Origin: Nesterenkonia ebinurensis
Lineage (GTDB): Bacteria > Actinomycetota > Actinomycetes > Actinomycetales > Micrococcaceae
Length of the DNA: 64,000 nt
Direction of reading: 5' to 3'
Assembly (NCBI RefSeq): GCF_008711175.1
Contig: NZ_VWNF01000021.1
Coordinates: 186,001 to 250,000, forward strand
Shown here: positions 24,230-38,322 of the stretch, piece by piece
Layout of the letters: every line of letters starts with the position of its first letter
Position numbering within the stretch: position 1 is the first letter of the stretch
Notes under the pieces: model-generated
Databases searched by the model: none
What the model saw: only the letters and a program-made list of their open reading frames with translations
What the model was told of the DNA's origin: nothing
Translations under genes and position numbers: made by a program

Positions 24230-25333
24230 TCACCCCGTGTATCCGAAGAGCTCTTCCCAGAGCTCTGCGTTTTCTTCGAGTAGGTCTTGGTACTCCTCTG
24301 GGTCAACGACATAGATTCCCTCATCATCCAGAGGAGGCATATCCACGCCCTCACCCAAGTCAGGGGCTCCCAACTCCGGATTTATGGGGTAGTCCCCCAG
24401 CTCTAGTGCCGCCAACTGCCCGCTATCCGAGAGCGTCCAATTCAGGAAAACTTCGGCAGTGTTAGGCGAGTCCCCACCTTCCGAGAGCCCAACGATGTAC
24501 TCGTTGACTGGGAACCCCTCTTCCGGAGCAACCAAGGTAATCGGCGCACCATCTTCAATCGCCACCATGCCCACCGTTGAAGGCACCGGGCCCGCAACCA
24601 ACTCACCTCGAGCCATCGCATCGGTCAGCGGCGAGGCAGAGTCAAAGATCCTGGGGCTGGTATCTGCCAACTGAGACAACCACTCCTCCCCCAACACATC
24701 CAACTGGAAGTGGACCAAGTTCGCAGACGACCCAGCAGCTCGAACCTGAGTTAATCCAATATCGCCGGAAGAGATCCCGTCTTCGATCAGGTCCTCCCAT
24801 GAAGTGAGCTCCTCATCGGCCACCTCATGGTTGTAGGCAAACAGGTAAGGCCGGTTGTAGGTGGTGAAGTAGAGACCGTCCTCGTGAACAGCCTCATCAG
24901 GGATACTGATGTCACTGGGAATGTCTGAGTACGAGCGAAATACCTCAGCGTCAACCAGTTGATCGATCAGGTCCCACCCGTCGATCCGGATCACATCGGC
25001 ACCTAGCTGATTTGCCTGATGCTCAGAGATAATCCGCTCAGTCAACTGATTGGGAACCACACGAACGAGATCCCCATCAAGCCCTGTCTCCTCCTGGAAA
25101 CGCTCTATCAGCTGCCTCTCACCAGCTTCACCTGAACCCGTATAGAGTATTAGGCCATCCTCATCCTGGGCCGCTTCCATCAACTCAGCCGAAGCAACTT
25201 CCTGTCCATCGATAACCAGCGAACCGTCATCCTGAACACCTTCACCATCACCGCCAGCCCCACCACATGCCGTAGTCAACACCAGCGCAGTAAGGGAACC
25301 AAACGCTCCCACCCTGAACATTGAGTAACTCAT
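24230..25333 (-). CDS. Fbp/AfuA-type ABC transporter substrate-binding lipoprotein, copy 1
   Basis: This is an extracellular binding protein of 367 residues with a lipoprotein signal: MSYSMFRVGAFGSL, LTTAC, lipidated Cys23. The mature protein opens with GGAGGDGEG and then LILYTGSGEAGERQLIERFQ, the first strand and helix of the iron/2-aminoethylphosphonate/spermidine-type binding fold. It is identical over residues 8-365 to the neighbouring copy; only the N-terminal seven residues and the final codons differ. The ATG has AAGGAG upstream. The protein is very acidic. Cargo is unknown; the nearby enzymes point to an organic molecule rather than free iron (inference). Confidence 0.9.
   Translation of the reverse strand: MSYSMFRVGAFGSLTALVLTTACGGAGGDGEGVQDDGSLVIDGQEVASAELMEAAQDEDGLILYTGSGEAGERQLIERFQEETGLDGDLVRVVPNQLTERIISEHQANQLGADVIRIDGWDLIDQLVDAEVFRSYSDIPSDISIPDEAVHEDGLYFTTYNRPYLFAYNHEVADEELTSWEDLIEDGISSGDIGLTQVRAAGSSANLVHFQLDVLGEEWLSQLADTSPRIFDSASPLTDAMARGELVAGPVPSTVGMVAIEDGAPITLVAPEEGFPVNEYIVGLSEGGDSPNTAEVFLNWTLSDSGQLAALELGDYPINPELGAPDLGEGVDMPPLDDEGIYVVDPEEYQDLLEENAELWEELFGYTG
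24237..25315. repeat. Tandem duplication, unit 1 (1,079 bp)
   Basis: This block matches 25359-26437 with a constant 1,122-bp offset and no difference that could be seen in DNA or in any translated frame. It covers almost the whole binding-protein gene. The flanks diverge abruptly on both sides. Confidence 0.93.
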
Positions 25334-25351: not shown

Positions 25352-26455
25352 CTAGCCTGTGTATCCGAAGAGCTCTTCCCAGAGCTCTGCGTTTTCTTCG
25401 AGTAGGTCTTGGTACTCCTCTGGGTCAACGACATAGATTCCCTCATCATCCAGAGGAGGCATATCCACGCCCTCACCCAAGTCAGGGGCTCCCAACTCCG
25501 GATTTATGGGGTAGTCCCCCAGCTCTAGTGCCGCCAACTGCCCGCTATCCGAGAGCGTCCAATTCAGGAAAACTTCGGCAGTGTTAGGCGAGTCCCCACC
25601 TTCCGAGAGCCCAACGATGTACTCGTTGACTGGGAACCCCTCTTCCGGAGCAACCAAGGTAATCGGCGCACCATCTTCAATCGCCACCATGCCCACCGTT
25701 GAAGGCACCGGGCCCGCAACCAACTCACCTCGAGCCATCGCATCGGTCAGCGGCGAGGCAGAGTCAAAGATCCTGGGGCTGGTATCTGCCAACTGAGACA
25801 ACCACTCCTCCCCCAACACATCCAACTGGAAGTGGACCAAGTTCGCAGACGACCCAGCAGCTCGAACCTGAGTTAATCCAATATCGCCGGAAGAGATCCC
25901 GTCTTCGATCAGGTCCTCCCATGAAGTGAGCTCCTCATCGGCCACCTCATGGTTGTAGGCAAACAGGTAAGGCCGGTTGTAGGTGGTGAAGTAGAGACCG
26001 TCCTCGTGAACAGCCTCATCAGGGATACTGATGTCACTGGGAATGTCTGAGTACGAGCGAAATACCTCAGCGTCAACCAGTTGATCGATCAGGTCCCACC
26101 CGTCGATCCGGATCACATCGGCACCTAGCTGATTTGCCTGATGCTCAGAGATAATCCGCTCAGTCAACTGATTGGGAACCACACGAACGAGATCCCCATC
26201 AAGCCCTGTCTCCTCCTGGAAACGCTCTATCAGCTGCCTCTCACCAGCTTCACCTGAACCCGTATAGAGTATTAGGCCATCCTCATCCTGGGCCGCTTCC
26301 ATCAACTCAGCCGAAGCAACTTCCTGTCCATCGATAACCAGCGAACCGTCATCCTGAACACCTTCACCATCACCGCCAGCCCCACCACATGCCGTAGTCA
26401 ACACCAGCGCAGTAAGGGAACCAAACGCTCCCACCCTCGAAACTTGAAACCTCAC
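25352..26455 (-). CDS. Fbp/AfuA-type ABC transporter substrate-binding lipoprotein, copy 2
   Basis: This is the second copy of the binding protein, also 367 residues, starting with GTG at 26455 and AGGAG eight bases upstream. The signal is MRFQVSRVGAFGSL then LTTAC. Because it directly follows the permease gene with its own natural start, it is more likely the ancestral copy, and the unit nearer the aldehyde dehydrogenase the added one. Both copies are intact and have ribosome sites, so binding protein dosage would be doubled. Confidence 0.9.
   Translation of the reverse strand: MRFQVSRVGAFGSLTALVLTTACGGAGGDGEGVQDDGSLVIDGQEVASAELMEAAQDEDGLILYTGSGEAGERQLIERFQEETGLDGDLVRVVPNQLTERIISEHQANQLGADVIRIDGWDLIDQLVDAEVFRSYSDIPSDISIPDEAVHEDGLYFTTYNRPYLFAYNHEVADEELTSWEDLIEDGISSGDIGLTQVRAAGSSANLVHFQLDVLGEEWLSQLADTSPRIFDSASPLTDAMARGELVAGPVPSTVGMVAIEDGAPITLVAPEEGFPVNEYIVGLSEGGDSPNTAEVFLNWTLSDSGQLAALELGDYPINPELGAPDLGEGVDMPPLDDEGIYVVDPEEYQDLLEENAELWEELFGYTG
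25359..26437. repeat. Tandem duplication, unit 2 (1,079 bp)
   Basis: This is the partner of 24237-25315. The 43-bp junction between the units (25316-25358) contains the start codon and AAGGAG site of copy 1 and the TAG stop of copy 2, so neither gene was broken by the duplication. Confidence 0.93.
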
Positions 26456-30504: not shown

Positions 30505-31422
30505 CTACTCACTCTTCAGCTGATCGGTGATCTCAGCGGCCCGGGCTGCCGCAGCCTTAGTCCCGGCGCGAATGGTCTGTCCCATGCTGTCGGTGTCGAA
30601 GGTGGTGATGGCCTGCTCGGTGGTGCCGTTGGGGCTGGTGACGTTCCTACGCAGTTGGGCGGCGTCATTATCGCCCAGGTTCTCCACGAGCATTTTTCCC
30701 GCGCCGTAAAGGGTCTGCGCGGCAAGCTCGGCAGCCAGCCGGGGGTCCAGGCCCAGCTCTGCCCCGGCCGCAGCCATATGCTCGGCCAGGTAGAAGGCGT
30801 AGGCCGGCCCGGAGCCCGCGATGGCCGAAAGCGCATCGATCTGGTCCTCGTCCAGCACATGCACTGAACCTGAAGCGCCCAGCAGCTCGGCCACCTGTTC
30901 CACCTGCTGCTTGCTCACGTGAGTGCCAGCGCTAAGTCCGACCACGCCAGCCCCCACGGACAGGGGGATATTCGGCATAGTGCGGATCACCGGCTGACCG
31001 GGGACCAGGGCAGCCTCCATCATCTCGATGGTCACCGCCGCGGCCACTGAGACCACCACCGCCTCAGGTTTCAGCGCATCCCTGATCTCGGTGCACACGT
31101 CGGTGATCTGGTAGGGTTTCACGCCCAGAAAGACCACCTCCGCCTGTGCAGCTGCGGTGCGGTTGGCAGCATACGCAGCTTCGGCGCTTGAACCCTCAAT
31201 CGCCTCAGAAGACTCAGCGCCAGTGCCGGTCTTAGCCCGACTCAACCGGGCACCGTCTTCTGGGGATAAGACCTCAACTCCAAACTGCTGCGAGCGCCGG
31301 TGGGCTGATTCTGTGGAGCGGGAGGTTGCCAGCACATCATCAGGGGAAACTCCAGACTCCAGCAGTCCGGCGAGGATCGCCCCATTCATGGAACCCAAGC
31401 CCAGCATCGCAATTTTGGTCAT
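30505..31422 (-). CDS. proC: Pyrroline-5-carboxylate reductase (ProC) with in-frame peptide insertion
   Basis: ProC makes proline from pyrroline-5-carboxylate using NAD(P)H. The start at 31422 (GAGGGGAATC then ATG) gives 305 residues, some 30 more than usual. The cofactor turn is IAMLGLGSMNGAILAGLL and the C-terminal signature region is VTSPNGTTEQAITTF. The extra length comes from residues about 55-90, which include RLSRAKTGTGAESSEA (59-74) between the second and third strands of the Rossmann domain. The same peptide appears in the methyltransferase at 36.6-38.3 kb. The rest is normal, so the insertion is probably tolerated in a surface loop. Confidence 0.93.
   Translation of the reverse strand: MTKIAMLGLGSMNGAILAGLLESGVSPDDVLATSRSTESAHRRSQQFGVEVLSPEDGARLSRAKTGTGAESSEAIEGSSAEAAYAANRTAAAQAEVVFLGVKPYQITDVCTEIRDALKPEAVVVSVAAAVTIEMMEAALVPGQPVIRTMPNIPLSVGAGVVGLSAGTHVSKQQVEQVAELLGASGSVHVLDEDQIDALSAIAGSGPAYAFYLAEHMAAAGAELGLDPRLAAELAAQTLYGAGKMLVENLGDNDAAQLRRNVTSPNGTTEQAITTFDTDSMGQTIRAGTKAAAARAAEITDQLKSE
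31200..31248 (-). repeat. In-frame peptide-coding repeat, copy A (in proC)
   Basis: These 49 bases encode RLSRAKTGTGAESSEA plus the first base of the next codon. They align without gaps to 38058-38106, with 37 of 49 bases identical and 13 of 16 residues identical. Most base differences are silent. Confidence 0.75.
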
Positions 31423-36603: not shown

Positions 36604-38322
36604 TCAATCGGCACCATCTGCTTTCTGCGTTGTTGCTGCCTCCGTTTCCTGGTCCTCCAGGAAACCCTCGGTGTAGAGGTCGAGGACTTCATGGGTGAGG
36701 GCATCCTCATCTGCCTCGGTCAGGGAGCAGACCGCGGTGATCAGCTGGGCGGCGGTGAACTCGCCGTCGGCCGCCGCCATGAAGCCCGCAGCTGCCGAGC
36801 TGACCGGTCGGCAGCGGCGCAGCCCGGCACCCTGACGGGCGATGATCACCTCGGGATGCTCGGCACCGAAGCGCTGGTAACGCTCTTCGGTGACAGCCTC
36901 TGGCACGATGAGAACCTGTTGGAGGACGGCGTCAGCGTCATGTTCAGCGGCGAGCGCCCGTTGGACGGTCTCTCCGATGACTGGACCCAAAGGCTGCTGG
37001 ACCTCTCCGGTGAGCTCTTCATAACAGGTCCAGGGGCTGGTGGGGAAGTGGGCGGCGTTATCTGCGGGTTTCTGCAGCCAGATCAGGCCGAAGCCGATCT
37101 GGGTCACTTGCCGGGAGGCGAAGTCCGCGATGTACTCGGCGTACCGGCGCCGGTAGTCGACAAGGCTGCGCTCCTCGGAGGCGTCGCGCAACCAGGTTTC
37201 GGCGTACTGGGCCGGGGTCTGCACATCGCGCTGGATGAACCAGGCGTTCAACCCAGCAGACTCCACCCAGGCTCGTGGCCGGGTGTGCCAAGCGTCATCA
37301 TTCTGATAAGACTCCCAATTCCCTAACATCTGCGCCGTGCCGCCGGGACTGAGCACCGCAGGCAGCCCGGTGATCAGCTCCTGCATCAGGGCATCACCCT
37401 CACGCCCGCCGTCGCGGTAGGTGTAACGCTCAGCCTCGGACTCTCCTGGGGTGCGCGGGGTGATCACGAACGGCGGGTTGGAGACCACCAGGTCGAACCG
37501 CCGAGCGCCCACCGGTTCCAGCAGGGAGCCCTGAACCAGCTGCACCCGGTCTTCCAGATGCACTGGATCCAGTCCCAGGGCCGGGGCATTGAGCAGCAGA
37601 TTGAACCGGGCGAAGACCAGAGCGCGCTCCGAGAGATCAGTGCCGGTGACATGCTCAGCATGGTCCAGCAGGTGCAGCAGCTGGATGCCGCAGCCGGTGC
37701 CGATGTCCAGTGCGGTCTTCACAGCCCGGCGGTGGGTGATCCCGGCCAACGTCAAGCTGGCCTGGCCTACCCCCAGCACGTGGTCATGCGGCAGGGCGCC
37801 GGTGACCTGATGAGCGGAGAGATCAGAGGTGACCCACAGGTCCTTGCTGCCTGCCTTAGTTTCCGCCAGGTAGGGCCGCAGGTCGCAGGCAGGCCAGACC
37901 CCGGTGTGCCCGGGCTGGGCCAGGCCGAGCTGGCGAAGGCCTTCCACCCCGGTGCGCGGTAGGGCGGCGGTCACCTGCTCGTAGGAGACTTCCACTGCCA
38001 CCAGCCACAGCGCGGTGAGCACCGCGCATGGGCGGTACCAGGACGGGTGGGAGACGTTCGCCTCGGGGGACTCGGCACCTGCGCCGGTCTCCGCTCGGCT
38101 CAATCGGTCGACGTCACTTGGGATACTCTCCAGCAGTTTCTGGACACGTAGCTGCCCGGGCACAATCTGCTCCCGGTCCAGGGCGGCCACCGCTTCGAGA
38201 CCGAGCAGCTCGGCCACCCCGTCATTGGTGAAGCCTGCCTCAGCCAAATCTTCACGCAATGAAGCGATCAGCCCCAAGTTCTGCGAATTGGGCGGGCCGG
38301 GTGCAGGCGGGAAGGCAGTCAT
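36604..38322 (-). CDS. SAM-dependent methyltransferase (HemK/RsmC-like NPPF type) with N-terminal extra domain
   Basis: This 572-residue protein has a long N-terminal domain (1-200) and a class I methyltransferase core: TALDIGTGCGIQLLHLL binds SAM, and DLVVSNPPFVI is the NPPF motif of N-methylating enzymes acting on bases or glutamine. A C-terminal region (about 430-560) of unknown role follows. The whole architecture recurs in Actinobacteria upstream of topA. Residues 73-88, RLSRAETGAGAESPEA, are an apparent insertion shared with ProC. The target of methylation is not known. It is divergent from the CrtI-like gene with a 43-bp gap. Confidence 0.85.
   Translation of the reverse strand: MTAFPPAPGPPNSQNLGLIASLREDLAEAGFTNDGVAELLGLEAVAALDREQIVPGQLRVQKLLESIPSDVDRLSRAETGAGAESPEANVSHPSWYRPCAVLTALWLVAVEVSYEQVTAALPRTGVEGLRQLGLAQPGHTGVWPACDLRPYLAETKAGSKDLWVTSDLSAHQVTGALPHDHVLGVGQASLTLAGITHRRAVKTALDIGTGCGIQLLHLLDHAEHVTGTDLSERALVFARFNLLLNAPALGLDPVHLEDRVQLVQGSLLEPVGARRFDLVVSNPPFVITPRTPGESEAERYTYRDGGREGDALMQELITGLPAVLSPGGTAQMLGNWESYQNDDAWHTRPRAWVESAGLNAWFIQRDVQTPAQYAETWLRDASEERSLVDYRRRYAEYIADFASRQVTQIGFGLIWLQKPADNAAHFPTSPWTCYEELTGEVQQPLGPVIGETVQRALAAEHDADAVLQQVLIVPEAVTEERYQRFGAEHPEVIIARQGAGLRRCRPVSSAAAGFMAAADGEFTAAQLITAVCSLTEADEDALTHEVLDLYTEGFLEDQETEAATTQKADGAD
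38058..38106 (-). repeat. In-frame peptide-coding repeat, copy B (in methyltransferase)
   Basis: These 49 bases encode RLSRAETGAGAESPEA plus one base. They are the counterpart of 31200-31248 in proC. Both lie on the minus strand and in the reading frame of their host gene. Confidence 0.75.

Follow-up and report, generated by a model that had tools for sequence, protein, structure and literature searches.

The window, that is, the whole 64,000-nucleotide stretch of DNA that was analysed, belongs to a Nesterenkonia genome (G000) of 3.74 Mb in 50 contigs with an estimated completeness of 98.65%. Genes were called with our own simple codon-usage finder, trained on the window, whose calls cover 90% of it and may miss short or atypical genes. 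Two of these genes, proC and a methyltransferase gene, carry copies of the same short element. The relevant features are the following:

30505-31422, minus strand: proC, host gene, encoding pyrroline-5-carboxylate reductase of 305 aa (TIGR00112, 221.8 bits, above cut-off).
31171-31248, minus strand: segment of proC without counterpart in relatives, 78 nt / 26 aa, RLSRAKTGTGAESSEAIEGSSAEAAY (edges ± a few residues).
31192-31259 (G000:C12:217192-217259), minus strand: element core in proC (68-position covariance model R1, E = 1.1e-16).
31242-31247, minus strand: first GATTGA box (here GGTTGA), 5′ side of a symmetric internal loop (model columns 13-18).
31202-31241, minus strand: hairpin 1 with inner GA/GA loop (model columns 19-58, placed by hand; covariation).
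31196-31201, minus strand: second GATTGA box, 3′ side of the symmetric internal loop (model columns 59-64).
31171-31191, minus strand: degenerate second hairpin of the element, AAGCGCCGAAGCTGCG-like, identified by eye (compare GAGCGCCGAAGGCGCGAAC in other copies).
36604-38322, minus strand: methyltransferase gene, second host in the window (matches to PF05175 MTS and PF23186 DUF7059).
38054-38117 (G000:C12:224054-224117), minus strand: second window copy, truncated at its 3′ side and without the second GATTGAG box (R1, E = 1.7e-11).

The window also contains a perfect 300-base direct repeat (24234-24533 and 25356-25655), with the two units 1122 bases apart.

Both peptides of the original prediction were found where it had placed them, ProC residues 59-74 being encoded at 31201-31248 and the methyltransferase copy at 38059-38106. 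They agree at 13 of 16 residues and 36 of 48 bases (the earlier count, 37 of 49, took in one base more). The extra segment of ProC had been thought to comprise 16 residues; alignment with relatives gave instead 26 residues, or 78 nt (approximately 31171-31248). Further copies were present in the genome: blastn with the 86-base ProC segment as query yielded 25 matches at E < 0.01, the query counted, and 41 in all at E ≤ 10, and the covariance model R1 identified 118 places at E ≤ 0.01, corresponding to 112 elements once overlaps were merged. The figure of 118 is probably a lower bound, since 150 of the 3224 first-look candidates were scored. The likeness between the ProC and methyltransferase peptides is far beyond chance, and the two are one pair from a large dispersed repeat family. 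Chance likeness was rejected on the number of places in the genome; taken together with common ancestry of the host genes, it is also at odds with the unrelated hosts and with the empty sites in orthologues described below, and we give such an explanation practically no credence.

The repeat was given the working name NPE (Nesterenkonia palindromic element). Its short form consists of two hairpins. From the outside inwards, the core is made of an outer CC/GG pairing, the GATTGA/GATTGA symmetric internal loop that surrounds hairpin 1, a GCC/GGC pairing, the GA/GA loop and finally a long hairpin interrupted by a bulged base; downstream of the core, the second hairpin carries a GAA loop, as seen by eye. 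The core hairpin, flanked by GATTGAG boxes, shows many compensatory changes, and five of the six columns of the second GATTGA box were invariant among 23 copies. These 23 copies, with 68 gapless positions, constituted the structure alignment, derived from a 27-row alignment (A1; 27 of the first 30 loci, L025, L027 and L029 having been removed beforehand) by dropping L015, L016, L028 and L030. RNAalifold returned an empty consensus fold on the 27 copies of A1. Folds of single copies gave a common shape in several of ten copies (e.g. L002, L003, L007 and L020), with energies mildly better than those of shuffled sequences (z from -0.4 to -2.1 in the ten copies). In the 23-copy alignment, 88.2% of cells were compatible with pairing vs 79.2% after shuffling, and cells with double changes numbered 37 vs 14.8 (reached in 0 of 500 shuffles). 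The covariation score was.298 vs.142 in shuffled alignments and.021-.129 in slid controls, over which the consensus structure has an advantage, having been hand-written from the fold of one copy after the four rows were dropped. Counted by pairs, 7 showed at least one double change, an unremarkable value (5.3 in shuffles; 80 of 500). Covariation held separately in each class of copies, namely 31 sense in-gene, 17 antisense in-gene, 16 intergenic and 6 other copies (0 of 300 shuffles in every class); these tests, like the codon-variability tests presented below, took copies with exactly 68 positions within the E cut-off. The same hairpin is kept, then, in coding and non-coding copies. A search of eight loci against Rfam gave three weak matches, none of them on an element, and a known RNA family was rejected on this result.

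A long form with four hairpins, two beyond those of the short form, was present at 14 loci. In six in-gene sense matches it encodes a CGACGAMSEATEGCPQCGQ-like Cys-x2-Cys-x9-Cys-x2-Cys stretch, with all four cysteines in five of the six, and by eye this stretch looks like a zinc knuckle. Conservation of the palindrome alone may explain why the cysteines are kept, since their TGC codons are situated at the base of hairpins 2 and 3, and three of six intergenic copies likewise retain the full set of four. Some intergenic copies bear further hairpins, again by eye; among them, L015, L024, L028, L123 and L124 have in common additional hairpins in their flanks and a GGAGCACCGTAGGTGCGAC-like tail, and may form a subtype of their own. 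In another genome of the genus, G151, an mrpD-like gene contains the relic DDDARLGRTATGASSA (L198), apparently an element whose hairpin has been partly deleted.

Regarding gene context, the 112 elements comprised 40 lying in genes in the sense orientation, all in one frame, 23 in genes in antisense orientation and in frame, 38 intergenic elements and 11 others (10 overlapping a gene end and one other). The sense consensus has a single open frame, because the two GATTGAG boxes each close one of the remaining frames with a TGA. The share of sense copies among those in genes, 40 of 63, strongly exceeded 1/4, the value for equal use of the four open frames (p = 1.3e-10), and slightly exceeded 1/2 (p = 0.043). 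The 23 antisense copies were distributed over the three codon phases as 12, 6 and 5. When a coding score of at least 8 was required on both flanks, 47 elements were left, 30 of them sense, 16 antisense and one other. Context was examined for 29 of the 64 copies of seven other carrier genomes; the 24 copies from G160 (14 of 37) and G151 (10 of 19) included nine in genes in the same sense frame, six antisense in genes, seven intergenic and two other. Two elements at the 3′ end of their hosts (G000:C1:502227, L084, and C1:385564, L089) apparently supply the TGA stop of the host gene from a GATTGAG box.

Intergenic copies are in excess, 38 of 112 elements as compared with approximately 10% of non-coding DNA in the window. 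This excess would be expected if NPE were an intergenic regulatory hairpin, such as a REP-like terminator or mRNA stabiliser, that lands in genes secondarily, and GATTGAG-hairpin arrays of two more distant genomes (G189 and G352, see below) look intergenic too. The 47 elements inside genes with a good coding score on both sides argue against such an origin, which we hold to be rather unlikely.

Since the requirement for an open frame makes the description of an element as being in frame partly circular, the existence of empty sites in relatives was used as an independent test. At 22 of 34 host sites, a close relative was found to lack the insert while its flanks aligned, as judged by eye. Hosts with such empty sites include IleRS, a biotin carboxylase protein, a carboxyltransferase, a PepO-type peptidase, GuaB, RsmB, citryl-CoA lyase, ProC, TrmD, GcvP, 5-FTHF cyclo-ligase, a DUF2017 protein, an ABC ATPase, GlnE, an aminotransferase and DapF, as well as an acetyltransferase (591962) with an insert of approximately 50 aa, the sole long-form host with a clean comparison. 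The count of 22 takes in site 26668, where approximately 16 further residues are missing in the relatives, and sites 124189, 83828 and 28908, which lie in loops of varying length. Five other sites were ambiguous or variable (224054, 45661, 60217, 263670 and 305883). The first of these is the methyltransferase copy of the window, which is located in a linker that differs from relative to relative and, owing to this variation and to the 3′ truncation of the copy, provides no clean empty site. At three sites a relative had an insert and no empty site was clear (119926, in G160; 29121, in G151; and 366284, in G160, decayed), and four were unalignable or without a relative (476229, 15538, 152379 and 99590). 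The empty sites in relatives show that the segments were gained by insertion; the less simple alternative would be a large number of precise losses. Since relatives bear inserts at the same place at four of the 34 sites (GcvP, 2108; 119926; 366284; and 29121), a few insertions appear to predate the split of the species, or the same site was struck twice. In gcvP, an antisense insert is common to G000 and G160 (L202) and the site is empty in G151 (L170), a pattern that could correspond to precise loss or to a repeated strike.

The ProC insert was missing from all ten relatives that could be aligned, as anticipated by the original prediction. Eleven orthologues had been fetched; the one from Nesterenkonia pannonica (L163) is out of frame in this region and was left out of the alignment (A4), and the L161 and G160 sequences, identical over the stretch compared, may represent one genome. 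The frame of the N. pannonica gene apparently breaks just past the insertion point, possibly as a result of a sequencing error. The net length difference was 78 nt in comparison with both G151 and G160. On the protein, the insertion point falls between the residues aligned to 51 and 56 of PDB 3tri, and an AlphaFold model, built with 11 sequences, places the insert between a strand (50-52) and a helix (79-92). In this model the segment, which had been suggested to sit in a surface loop, is a predicted loop of low confidence, with pLDDT < 50 at residues 68-77; mean pLDDT was 74, with block means of 80-93 over the first 60 residues, and parts of the C-terminal domain are of low confidence as well.

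Across 11 sites and 20 comparisons, every net difference in DNA length was a multiple of three. With respect to the nearest clean relative, the added length was 75-99 nt at ten sites (75 nt at five of them, 78 in ProC and TrmD, and 81, 87 and 99), so that host enzymes carry approximately 25-30 extra amino acids. These lengths, and the fact that the host frame stays open through the insert, bear on whether the protein ever contains the peptide. Removal or skipping of the insert after transcription, by self-splicing RNA or by ribosome bypassing of the kind reported for Magnusiomyces mitochondria (PMC6649704), would fit a structured hairpin within coding sequence. It would also account for the tolerance of an insert by IleRS, an essential enzyme; in this genome IleRS has one match above the curated cut-off, which bears the insert, and the same was observed for ProC (TIGR00112). 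Against such a process count the open host frame and the lengths in multiples of three; moreover, the short form adds just 75-99 nt and the Rfam search of eight loci gave no match on an element. We consider it very unlikely that the proteins are freed of the insert in this way.

The original prediction had noted that most base differences between the two window copies are silent, and had considered a selected tag or binding segment as one explanation. The observation is correct for the window pair, with nine of the 12 differences at third codon positions and three at first positions, and does not extend to the family: in 30 sense in-gene copies, variability at codon positions 1, 2 and 3 was.333,.317 and.329, without any third-position excess, and the codon-position contrast between sense and other copies was not significant (121 of 1000 permutations). 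Stops in the sense frame were found in none of the 30 sense copies, a class chosen for openness, in three of 13 intergenic copies and in six of 16 antisense copies. A peptide tag or binding motif spreading through a benefit to host proteins would agree with the presence of the same peptide in the same frame in 40 in-gene elements, and with the third-position share of the window pair. Against it count the lack of third-position excess in the family, the 23 in-gene antisense copies, which encode other peptides, the intergenic excess, the retention of the same hairpin whether or not it is coding, and the orthologues without insert at 22 of 34 sites. In addition, the 30 of 64 host proteins that were identified through a Pfam/NCBIfam scan, largely enzymes with one insertion each, have no evident pathway in common. 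A selected tag is, on this evidence, highly improbable. The peptide does not look selected; given the absence of third-position excess and the existence of antisense and intergenic copies, the comparison points to tolerance of the insert instead of a selected tag.

Candidate mobilising functions were sought in the genomes that carry the element. The Y1_Tnp domain (PF01797) was found in none of the eight carriers of the genus, in drafts that could miss a gene and with a control search that was positive in five of 14 named genomes; RAYT or IS200-type mobilisation was rejected on this basis. Reverse transcriptase (RVT_1, PF00078) was found in three of the eight carriers (G151, G160 and G165) and in three of 22 non-carriers. 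It was not found in G000, the genome richest in copies, and was also rejected as the mobiliser. Carriage by sequenced phages or plasmids was rejected as well, as one 114-base copy had no match in either collection. The flanks of 87 copies were searched for target duplications, and the observed match was reached by 73, 47, 92 and 195 of 500 shuffles for lengths of 6, 8, 9 and 12, respectively (mean 9-mer match, 5.94 vs 5.86 in shuffles). The target word GACGACGCC corresponds to Asp-Asp-Ala in the sense frame. Allowing up to one mismatch, 33 of its 56 occurrences in genes of the window were in the sense codon phase and 16 were codon-aligned antisense. A preference for GACGACGCC-like targets could yield the observed sense share, but the antisense phases do not fit it, because six of the 23 antisense insertions are in the codon-aligned phase.

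The distribution of NPE is patchy. Eight of the 30 Nesterenkonia genomes surveyed carried the element, with 118 (G000), 37 (G160), 19 (G151), 3, 2, 1, 1 and 1 copies, five of the carriers thus holding just one to three; the other 22 genomes showed no element, in a survey in which four of the 30 genomes were less than 90% complete. The searches beyond the genus were insensitive, and their lack of matches is not proof of absence. The family sample comprised 149 genomes, for each of which 34 candidates were scored under stricter filters; four genomes besides G000 had single borderline matches (E = 0.003-0.005), which by eye lack the element architecture. In an order sample of 396 genomes with 12 candidates scored per genome, four other genomes matched at E ≤ 1e-4. 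Two of them, G189 (with two units in tandem) and G352, present the same GATTGAG-hairpin-GATTGAG design; G302 has a related hairpin array with degenerate boxes, and the match in G433 looks weak. A strict pattern gave some match in 12 of the 396 genomes, with a hairpin visible just in G000, G189 and G352; a reversed control pattern also matched in two genomes. The GATTGAG-like boxes of L215 (G189), L220 (G352) and L217 (G302), in unrelated Micrococcales, could belong to a possible wider clan.

A literature search in openly licensed papers revealed no description of such elements in Nesterenkonia or Actinobacteria, in agreement with the original prediction. The comparison that it made with Rickettsia palindromic elements (RPEs) is apt as an analogy. 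RPEs, first reported by Ogata et al. (2000, 2002) as cited in later papers, are described as small dispersed palindromic repeats, located between genes and also in frame within unrelated conserved genes (PMC2229807, PMC10969869, PMC3767692), and NPE resembles them in each of these respects. It differs in its host, an actinobacterial genus and not Rickettsiales, in a modular design of two or four hairpins with conserved unpaired GATTGA boxes, and in the length added by the short form (75-99 nt, against the 105-146 bp given for RPEs). Wolbachia palindromic elements and the in-frame palindromic insertions of Methanocaldococcus jannaschii are likewise described as protein-coding palindromic insertions (PMC2229807, PMC2996958), but belong to another phylum or domain. 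NPE combines a hairpin, in-frame insertion with empty relatives and intergenic copies, the traits of protein-coding palindromic repeats, and the elements of Rickettsia, Wolbachia and Methanocaldococcus are the closest kind; by analogy, NPE works like them.

Other families of small repeats are less similar. GTAG REPs are described as small dispersed palindromes, some within genes, that are mobilised by RAYT transposases (PMC3733652); no GTAG tag was seen in the NPE consensus, and the carriers lack detectable Y1_Tnp as stated above. CGTC REPs, which include RPE-4 and RPE-6, are palindromic and in some cases located inside ORFs, apparently without a dedicated transposase; according to the same source, their stems nearly always begin with A-T pairs and mostly have a CCA tail, and the five phyla from which it reports them do not include Actinobacteria (PMC3733652). 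By inspection, the NPE consensus has neither the CGTC tag nor the A-T stem start nor the CCA tail described there. Bacterial MITEs such as ERIC, Correia and YPAL are presented as non-autonomous elements of 100-200 bp with known in-frame fusions (PMC2229807), and NPE is likewise non-autonomous and forms in-frame fusions. Unlike MITEs, NPE carries GACGNCGCC-like words at its ends as direct, not inverted, repeats (by inspection). The 87 copies gave no clear target duplication signal. PARCEL repeats are described as palindromic, coding and horizontally mobile, forming tandem domains largely in membrane or surface proteins (PMC2996958), whereas NPE hosts are largely enzymes with one insertion each.

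Altogether, we consider with a probability of approximately 85% that the ProC segment represents a copy of a palindromic mobile element, small, dispersed and non-autonomous, which resembles RPEs and resides in another phylum. The original proposal that a peptide-coding mobile repeat is spreading in this lineage finds good support in the dispersed copies, the empty sites and the mostly unshared insertion positions. The hairpin, as single-stranded DNA or RNA, would be the feature that a mobilising enzyme recognises; insertions that preserve the host frame and land in loops would be tolerated and the rest lost, and the extra peptide would be translated and would mostly act as neutral ballast. A more elaborate interpretation, which seems to us doubtful, is that NPE became adapted to life within genes through its frame-closing boxes, its hydrophilic loop-like peptide and its zinc-knuckle-like long form. 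According to this interpretation, the enzyme would move a structured nucleic acid, either RNA or single-stranded DNA, and would favour the sense strand of genes. If true, the element would be a natural domain-insertion system that gives ordinary enzymes new, partly metal-binding modules.

Rickettsia and Wolbachia are the best-known sources of protein-coding palindromic elements. The occurrence of more than 100 copies in an actinobacterium shows that neither an intracellular lifestyle nor an AT-rich genome is a prerequisite for them. The family also provides dozens of natural insertion experiments in enzymes, IleRS, biotin carboxylase and IMP dehydrogenase among them, for which the relatives with empty sites can act as controls, and the contrast within one genus between eight carriers and 22 genomes that show no copy may help to find the mobiliser of such elements.
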